Shown here: positions 13,622-38,706 of the stretch, piece by piece
How positions within the stretch are numbered: the stretch's first letter is position 1
Layout: every line of letters starts with the position of its first letter
Program-made: the position numbers and the translations under genes
Notes under the pieces: model-generated
What the model was told of the DNA's origin: nothing
The model's database searches: none
Seen by the model: the letters and a program-made list of their open reading frames with translations, nothing else
NCBI GenBank assembly: GCA_003165335.1
Contig: PLTD01000259.1
Coordinates: 1 to 46,892, forward strand
DNA length: 46,892 bases
DNA from: Rhodospirillales bacterium
Lineage (GTDB): Bacteria; Pseudomonadota; Alphaproteobacteria; BOG-932; Roseiterribacteraceae
Reading direction: 5' to 3'

Positions 13622-13640
13622 CGTCAATATAACAGATAAT
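13622..13640 (-). promoter_or_regulatory. Organosulfur element upstream of desulfinase 1
   Basis: The complement reads ATTATCTGTTATATTGACG, the best copy of the repeated element. It contains TATATTGAC, the complement of the exact nonamer GTCAATATA (13623-13631). It lies about 90 bases upstream of the desulfinase start. TTGACG could double as a -35 box. Confidence 0.6.
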
Positions 13641-36194: not shown

Positions 36195-37637
36195 ATGACC
36201 AACATTGCCATTATCGGAGCGGGATTCAGCGGCACTTTGCTTGCGCTTCATTTGCTGCGTCGGTGTCCGGCTGGTTGCAATGTGACCTTGATCGAGCGCG
36301 CAGTTAAGTTTGGGCGCGGCGCAGCTTACGCGACGGGCAATCCCAATCACCTTTTGAACGTGCCGGCAGGCCGGATGAGCGCCTTTCACGACCGCTCCGG
36401 TGATTTTCTCGATTGGCTTAAACAGCAATCCGACCCCTGCTTGGACCTACCGCTGGGCGAGCACAGCTTTGTCCCGCGTCAGCTGTTCGGCGATTATGTT
36501 CGGCATCTGCTCAACCGCGAAATCAAGGCGTCTTCTCGGGACGTGAAATTGAAATTGACCCGGGGAGACGTGCAGGGGATCGAGCCGGCTGCGGGTGGTG
36601 TCGTTATCCGTCTCGATCGCGGCAGGTCGGTGCACGCGGATCTAGCTGTTCTGGCTGTCGGAAATTTTCCGCCCGAATCACCGCCGGTCGACGATCCGGC
36701 CTTCTATAACTCCAATCTTTATCGCTCCGACCCCTGGGCGTCCAACGCGTTTTCAGGGCTCAAATCCGATAGTCCGGTCTTGCTGATCGGCACCGGCTTA
36801 ACGATGGTGGATGCGACCATCTCCTTGCTCGACCACGGGCACAAGGGCCCCATCTATGCGCTGTCTCGCCGAGGGCTGCTGCCCCAAAGGCATGTTGCTT
36901 CTGTCGTGACACCGGCAGAGCGCGTAGAGCCAGTTCCCACGTCGCTGGTTCAACTCACGCAATTTCTGCGGCGTGAAGCCAAGCGCGCGGTTTGCGAAAG
37001 TGCAGATTGGCGCGCGGTCGTCGATGCGTTGCGTCCGTTCACCGGCGATGTCTGGGCTGAAATGTCTATGACCGACCGAGCACGTTTTCTGCGTCATATC
37101 CGTCCCTGGTGGGAAATCCATCGCCATCGCATGGCGACATCGGTCGCGGATCGAATAGAGGCCGCGATCGCGCGCGGCCAGCTCCGACTTAAGGCCGGCC
37201 GGATATTGTCGTTTCACGAGGATAACGGTCAGGTGGATGTCCGTTATCGTTTGCGCGGGACGGATCGTGTCGAAAGTCTGACCGCCGCGCGGGTGGTCAA
37301 TTGTTCCGGGCCAGGTTGCGATTACGCGCGGATTTCTCATCCTCTGATCCGCAACATGCTCGAAACCGGGATGGTTAGGCCCGACGCCCTTAGTCTCGGG
37401 TTAGATGTTACGAGAAATTGCGCTCTTAAAGATCGTCGAGGTGCAATCTCCGGCCGACTCTTCGCCGTCGGCCCTGTCACAAAAGCGGCTTTCTGGGAAA
37501 TGACCGCGGTGCCGGATATTCGCCGGCAATGCGAATATCTGGCCAATCACATCAGCAGTTTGGTTAAGGGGGCGTCGTCAAAGGGTCAGTCGTCTACGGA
37601 AGAGCTTCGGCGCGAGATTCGGAAGGTGATCGGCTGA
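36195..37637 (+). CDS. FAD/NAD(P)-binding oxidoreductase (PF13454-like)
   Basis: This 480-residue protein has an N-terminal Rossmann motif IAIIGAGFSGTLLALHLL followed by LIERAVKFGRGAAYATGNPN and HLLNVPAGRMSAF, the pattern of the NAD_binding_9 family. A second nucleotide-binding strand is VLLIGTGLTMVDATISLLDH (about residue 196). The C-terminal part contains VVNCSGPGCDYARISHPLI. It is cytoplasmic. The precise reaction is not known to me. Relatives are FAD-dependent oxidoreductases of mostly unassigned role. It is the last gene with an island-like upstream element and may belong to the regulon. Confidence 0.85.
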   Translation: MTNIAIIGAGFSGTLLALHLLRRCPAGCNVTLIERAVKFGRGAAYATGNPNHLLNVPAGRMSAFHDRSGDFLDWLKQQSDPCLDLPLGEHSFVPRQLFGDYVRHLLNREIKASSRDVKLKLTRGDVQGIEPAAGGVVIRLDRGRSVHADLAVLAVGNFPPESPPVDDPAFYNSNLYRSDPWASNAFSGLKSDSPVLLIGTGLTMVDATISLLDHGHKGPIYALSRRGLLPQRHVASVVTPAERVEPVPTSLVQLTQFLRREAKRAVCESADWRAVVDALRPFTGDVWAEMSMTDRARFLRHIRPWWEIHRHRMATSVADRIEAAIARGQLRLKAGRILSFHEDNGQVDVRYRLRGTDRVESLTAARVVNCSGPGCDYARISHPLIRNMLETGMVRPDALSLGLDVTRNCALKDRRGAISGRLFAVGPVTKAAFWEMTAVPDIRRQCEYLANHISSLVKGASSKGQSSTEELRREIRKVIG

Positions 37638-37707
37638 AGCCCGCACTGAAGTCCGGTAGCGAAGCCTTCCGGCTCGATAGCGGACATCTCAGTGAGCCCC
37701 GCAGGAC

Positions 37708-37816
37708 AAAAAAAGAGCCGCACGAAGGCGGCTCAAAGGCAGGGAGGAAACGCCCGTAGGGGCGTTGGATATGGCGGGGAAGATGCCATATCGACTGCAT
37801 TGATAGCGCAAAGCAG
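37708..37816 (-). ncRNA. Candidate trans-acting small RNA with three hairpins
   Basis: On the minus strand a -10-like TATACA (complement of 37823-37828) is followed by about 109 bases with three perfect hairpins. The first is GATATGGC/GCCATATC with loop ATCTTCCCC (37768-37792). The second is AACGCCC/GGGCGTT with loop CTAC (37749-37766). The third is GAGCCGC/GCGGCTC (37715-37734), followed by seven T, an intrinsic terminator. Pyrimidine-rich CUUCCCC and UUUCCUCCCUGCC are exposed in a loop and between hairpins. Such anti-Shine-Dalgarno motifs are typical of alphaproteobacterial regulatory RNAs. No gene on this strand needs the terminator. The 5' end is approximate. Confidence 0.72.
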
Positions 37817-37985
37817 ATGTCTTGTATAGCAGATACTTGTCCGTTTTATTATTTTAATCGATCCATTGCCCGCGCAATTCGTATTTTGAGCCTGTGCCTG
37901 CAACGACACACGGCCAACCTTGCCGTTGACAGCGCAGGTGCAGACCGATGCATGTCCTCGAACTTTTCTTGTGATTGTTAAGCGA

Positions 37986-38009
37986 TAATCATATTATGTA
38001 GTATGATTA
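37986..38009. promoter_or_regulatory. Candidate TetR operator
   Basis: TAATCATA (37986-37993) and TATGATTA (38002-38009) form a perfect 8-base inverted repeat with an 8-base spacer just upstream of the TetR gene. This is the usual size and place for an autoregulatory TetR operator. Confidence 0.6.
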
Positions 38010-38046
38010 ATTGGGGTGGTTCGAAGGTCTCGTTGGCGGGGTTCGG

Positions 38047-38706
38047 GTGACAAAGCTTCTTAGGAGAGGCGCAGATTTGCGCGTTGCCGGCAGGCGTACC
38101 GGGCGGCCGACACGACAAGATGCGAGTCGCAAAAGCGAGCGGCTGATGACGGTTGCCACCGATTATTTCGCCGAACACGGATTTGCCGGGACGACGATCG
38201 ATGCCATCGCGCAGGCCGCGGACATGGGCAAACAGGCCGTCTATACGCGTTTTACCGACAAGGAACGGCTGTTCGATGCCGTTATTCAAAGGCTGAAAGA
38301 GAAGGCGGTCTTCCAGCAGTTTCCACCCGACGACGACAGCTCGGTGACCGAGGGCCTGCCCCGGCGAATCGCGGCGATTTTCGCGGATGCGACGCGGCCA
38401 TATTCGATGACGGTGAGCAAACTTGCGCTACGCGAGGGCCGCCGTTTCCCCGATCTTGTGCCCCTGCTGGTCGAAGGGACCGCTCAGCGCTTTACCAGGC
38501 CGCTCGCTGCTTATCTCGATGCGCATAAACAGGCAGGCGAGGTGCGCGACATCGACACGATGGAGGCGGCGGCAATGTGCGTCGACCTGATCCTGGCCGA
38601 GATCACACTCTCAATCTGCACCGATGTTCCTATTTCGCAATTGCAAATCGATACCAGCGTCAAACGGATCGCCGACTTTACGCTGCGTGGAGTGTCAGCC
38701 CGCTGA
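38047..38706 (+). CDS. TetR/AcrR-family transcriptional regulator
   Basis: GTG at 38047 gives 219 residues. A TTG at 38011 would add 12 more but lies against the palindrome. The N-terminal HTH is at about residues 33-65 (LMTVATDYFAEHGFAGTTID, then AIAQAADMGKQAVYTRFTDK). The C-terminal ligand domain contains REGRRFPDLVPLLVEG. It probably represses itself through the inverted repeat at 37986-38009, and likely the Rieske oxygenase gene that starts 53 bases downstream. The inducer is unknown but may be an aromatic compound. Confidence 0.92.
   Translation: MTKLLRRGADLRVAGRRTGRPTRQDASRKSERLMTVATDYFAEHGFAGTTIDAIAQAADMGKQAVYTRFTDKERLFDAVIQRLKEKAVFQQFPPDDDSSVTEGLPRRIAAIFADATRPYSMTVSKLALREGRRFPDLVPLLVEGTAQRFTRPLAAYLDAHKQAGEVRDIDTMEAAAMCVDLILAEITLSICTDVPISQLQIDTSVKRIADFTLRGVSAR

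Follow-up and report, generated by a model that had tools for sequence, protein, structure and literature searches.

The minus strand of the window, by which we mean the whole 46,892-nt stretch analysed, carries at 37793-37708 a compact predicted RNA of 86 nt, made of three consecutive hairpins and a 7-T terminator. The element is intergenic, with plus-strand genes on either side (36195-37637 and 38011-38706), and its terminator is the only one found in the region 37500-38100. Read 5' to 3' from about 37793 to 37708, the RNA runs CGAUAUGGCAUCUUCCCCGCCAUAUC-C-AACGCCCCUACGGGCGUU-UCCUCCCUGCCUUU-GAGCCGCCUUCGUGCGGCUC-UUUUUUU. A 5' hairpin with an 8-bp stem and the 9-nt loop AUCUUCCCC (37792-37768), delimited by the fold and by alignment of the copies described below, is followed by the middle hairpin AACGCCC-CUAC-GGGCGUU (37766-37749), supported by the fold and a covariance-model match. 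Between hairpins 2 and 3 lies the family 10-mer UUUCCUCCCU (37750-37741), an anti-Shine-Dalgarno seed identical to the 10-mer of SisA-D (PMC12559287), in which the first two U are paired in the predicted fold and the other eight bases are unpaired. The RNA ends in an intrinsic terminator (37734-37708), recovered by both terminator scan and fold, with a 7-bp stem at 37734-37715 and seven T at 37714-37708. Folding of the 86 nt yields -35.6 kcal/mol, against -17.2 +/- 2.5 for shuffled sequences (z -7.33; 0/200 shuffles as good), and a longer stretch of 108 nt gives z -5.19. The three hairpins and seven-T terminator reported by the first-pass annotation are present where it placed them, and so are its two pyrimidine-rich stretches, CUUCCCC in the loop of hairpin 1 and CCUCCCU separating hairpins 2 and 3.

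Family membership and covariation

An Rfam scan of the whole window returned a single match, to RF00519 (suhB/mmgR), which spans the full-length model (1-77) and places an alpha-r8 (MmgR/SuhB family) small RNA at 37708-37793 on the minus strand with 45.4 bits, the curated cut-off being 41 bits. RyhB and anti-hemB were rejected as identities, their Rfam matches falling far under the cut-off. Covariation was assessed with a model built from seven genus copies, which found 49 matches in 54 sources. All three helices covary, with 95% of cells paired and 20/21 pairs changed on both sides, while 0/500 shuffles reach any of these measures and sliding the partner by 1-3 columns leaves 35-51% paired; the alignment, being fitted, leans to structure, yet the slid controls lie far below. 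Compensatory base changes in homologues, whose absence the first-pass annotation would have held against the RNA, are strongly present (20/21 pairs).

Judged by its sequence, the element is a member of the alpha-r8 family with the corresponding structure and exposed 10-mer, and it is very probably a trans-acting small RNA of that family (Rfam RF00519; MmgR of Sinorhizobium, SuhB of Sphingopyxis, SisA-D of Caulobacter). Rather than a new kind of RNA, it is a further copy of a family known from many Alphaproteobacteria. The earlier proposal of a small RNA gene with anti-Shine-Dalgarno stretches holds, but the RNA it took as unannotated belongs to RF00519. That the element is no small RNA gene but just an ordinary terminator or a 3' UTR is scarcely credible: it does end in an intrinsic terminator, but no convincing minus-strand gene lies just upstream, and family membership and the covariation of all three helices speak against this reading.

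Copies in the genome, the genus and the class

The genome contains four RF00519 copies, on contigs C161 (55.1 bits), C126 (the window copy, 45.4 bits), C44 (40.9 bits) and C218 (31.7 bits), the last two below the 41-bit cut-off. More widely, at least one match was found in 32 of the 59 genomes searched, our own genome included. The 5' hairpin sequence GATATGGCAYCTTCCCCGCCRTATY is nearly invariant in three of the own-genome copies and in two copies in each of two congeners, the MAGs "Rhodospirillales bacterium RYN_452" and "Alphaproteobacteria bacterium BOG_genome_mining.73". The loop AUCUUCCCC and the stem sequence of this hairpin are found in this genus only; outside it, a 5' hairpin is present but with other sequences. 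In a scan of about 85,000 genomes, CTTCCCCGCC occurred upstream of the seed in 14 stretches, eight of which were read: the four congener copies, two alphaproteobacterial copies from elsewhere whose 5' part is built differently, and two stretches that show no alpha-r8 structure. Linkage to N-formylglutamate amidohydrolase (FGase) genes is usual in alpha-r8 RNAs but not obligatory, and extra copies elsewhere are normal (PMC12559287); here the FGase genes are carried by contigs C92 and C116, and none is on the contigs of the four copies.

Comparison with known members highlights both similarities and differences. MmgR of Sinorhizobium meliloti, which has three stem-loops and an anti-Shine-Dalgarno motif (PMC7143759), shares with the window copy the three stem-loops, the anti-Shine-Dalgarno 10-mer, the intrinsic terminator and the match to the covariance model. 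However, MmgR is a 77-nt, single-copy RNA repressed by PhaR/AniA, whereas the window copy is about 86 nt long, is one of four, has no intact PhaR-type palindrome and carries a genus-specific 5' loop. Like SisA-D of Caulobacter crescentus (PMC12559287), the copies described here are multiple dispersed siblings with the same seed; unlike SisA-D, three of them have a nearly identical 5' hairpin and their promoters, with the exception of that of the window copy, have a common motif. SuhB of Sphingopyxis granuli (PMC6563040) is the small RNA behind the Rfam family name, and its family identity with the window RNA is by name; it was reported as 61 nt long, and its target thnR, which it represses in an Hfq-dependent manner at the 5' UTR of the mRNA, belongs to another pathway (PMC6563040).

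The homologs included some unusual arrangements. Three tandem alpha-r8 copies lie inside 600 bases in one genome (G036:C7:54432-55030; L009, L035 and L036), and one homolog has the seed and preceding bases doubled (GGACGTTTCCTCCCTTTCTAGGACGTTTCCTCCCT) in a single RNA (L020:1504-1531). Five weak RF00519 matches (L051, L055, L058, L061 and L064) carry GTCTCCCAGACGTGAAGCCTCCCTGT or a close variant, four of the five without a PhaR-type site, and apparently form a distinct related group of small RNAs.

The promoter of the window copy

No minus-strand promoter passes a consensus scan, and the one predicted is weak. When aligned with the sibling promoters, of which TTGACG-N17-TATATT with CGCAGNTGCR inside the spacer is an example, the sequence shows a probable -10 box TATCAA at 37805-37800 and, 17 bp from it, a probable -35 box TATACA at 37828-37823, with a start expected near 37793. 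TATACA, which had been taken for a -10-like box, is therefore more likely the -35. The same alignment reveals, at 37819-37806 on the minus strand, CTGCTTTGCG as the remnant of a PhaR-type palindrome that reads CGCAGNTGCR in the siblings. Of the genus copies that share the hairpin, only the window copy has lost the left half-site of this palindrome; an intact YGCR-N1/2-YGCR palindrome is absent from the window-copy promoter and present in the other shared-hairpin copies. In Sinorhizobium, PhaR (AniA) binds the mmgR promoter via a palindrome with the core YGCRNYGCR (PMC12542648), which the genus sequence CGCAGNTGCR resembles but for one extra base in the middle. Counted 30-120 nt upstream of the seed among loci L001-L069, a PhaR-type palindrome is present in 5/6 genus copies, and YGCR-N1/2-YGCR precedes 23/29 canonical copies from beyond the genus, whereas random 90-nt windows contain it in 19% of cases and scrambled patterns reach 0-2/29. 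Because the site is so frequent in alpha-r8 promoters, the tie to PHB granules described in Sinorhizobium may be widespread in the class. Among the genome's own proteins is one with the PHB accumulation regulatory domain of PhaR (PF05233). What is specific to the window copy is its promoter, in which half of the PhaR-type palindrome is gone. We infer that this copy is a paralog that has diverged and is no longer transcribed under the PhaR/PHB control suggested for its siblings.

Two other readings of this divergence were weighed. The first, that the window copy is a decaying duplicate whose promoter is broken and gives barely any transcript, we regard as unlikely. It would account for the weakest promoter among the aligned copies, for an altered post-seed linker (GCCTTT in place of AAACTC) and for the presence in genome G002 (97% complete) of two copies only, which align best with the other two siblings; but nothing is damaged in the seed, 5' hairpin, terminator or U-tail, and full pairing persists in the middle hairpin and terminator. 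Young and diverged, the window copy could be silent. The second reading, that a copy having escaped PhaR control was recruited into the regulation of the sulfur-scavenging genes nearby, is quite unlikely. The loss of the left half of the palindrome, unlike in aligned siblings, is compatible with it, as is the flanking gene at 36195-37637, which was not found in either congener (one of them only 65% complete), and which is why the window copy may sit in an accessory region. The promoter also matches the left half (TATCTG-TATA), and that half only, of a repeated element of the island promoters, TATCTGTTATATTGAC. This element, with 5 sites at up to 3 mismatches (0.1 expected) and 10 at up to 4 (0.7 expected), occurs at window positions 13623, 13841, 17350, 24999, 25061, 30293 and 36004 in upstream regions of a transporter/luciferase-type monooxygenase island, and is probably a regulator site. 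However, against TATCTGTTATATTGAC defined without the small RNA, its promoter has 6/16 mismatches, a chance-level match of which about 67 are expected, and there is no clear seed pairing at island gene starts. The promoter motif that the first-pass annotation had called similar to the island element, TATCTGCTATACAAGAC, occurs once in the window with no second copy within 3 mismatches, and is not enriched genome-wide (40 sites against 47 for the reversed pattern, at up to 2 mismatches). A motif derived from sites picked for their likeness to the small RNA ranked it 9th of 93,746 and was discarded, the choice being circular; with expectation-maximisation on the island promoters alone it ranked 29th to 57th. 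A part for the window copy in a sulfur response is not supported.

A diverged paralog outside PhaR control remains the preferred reading. With several siblings of a conserved carbon-status small RNA family now placed in an uncultured genus, and one of them diverged in its promoter but not in seed or structure, nature supplies a test of whether what sets alpha-r8 siblings apart is the timing of their synthesis and not their binding partners.

Predicted action and candidate targets

By analogy with characterised relatives, the window RNA would bind Hfq through its U-tail, and the single-stranded UUUCCUCCCU would pair with GGGAGG-type Shine-Dalgarno sequences, blocking translation of a set of mRNAs among which those of TonB-dependent receptors are plausible. 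A translation block by pairing with ribosome-binding sites is the most likely mode of action. In Caulobacter, alpha-r8 RNAs repress mRNAs via the 10-mer with Hfq; SisA represses a TonB-dependent receptor mRNA by pairing the 10-mer with its leader, as compensatory mutations confirmed in an E. coli supplied with Caulobacter Hfq (PMC12559287). The genome has 30 GGGAGGAA-N4..11-ATG sites and 5 of the reversed pattern, a count that mainly reflects ordinary Shine-Dalgarno sites and does not by itself imply enrichment in any gene class. Three of these sites, at G000:C108:283, C150:22996 and C235:21745 (G000 being the genome studied here), precede TonB-dependent receptor genes, which we consider candidate targets. 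Within the window, no convincing Shine-Dalgarno pairing was found at gene starts, the best pairing (-24.2 kcal/mol; 1% background level -23.2) being at a doubtful internal TTG start.

A second seed in the 5' loop was also considered and rejected. GGGGAAGAT precedes ATG at 12 sites in the genome, against 0 for the reversed pattern, but several of these share GGGGAAGATGTTAA within a repeat close to contig ends, and counts of GGGGAAGRT are similar in genomes that lack the shared hairpin. The CUUCCCC loop, proposed earlier as a further targeting site, thus finds no support in ribosome-site counts. It is distinctly improbable that this sibling left the PHB/PhaR circuit for a local island regulator while the genus-specific loop (AUCUUCCCC), as a second anti-Shine-Dalgarno site, added targets of its own. 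A repeat with GGCTTCAGCCGGGGGAAGATGTTAA is present on contigs C41, C100, C206 and C213 of the genome, mostly near contig ends, and may be the end of a mobile element at which the assembly broke.
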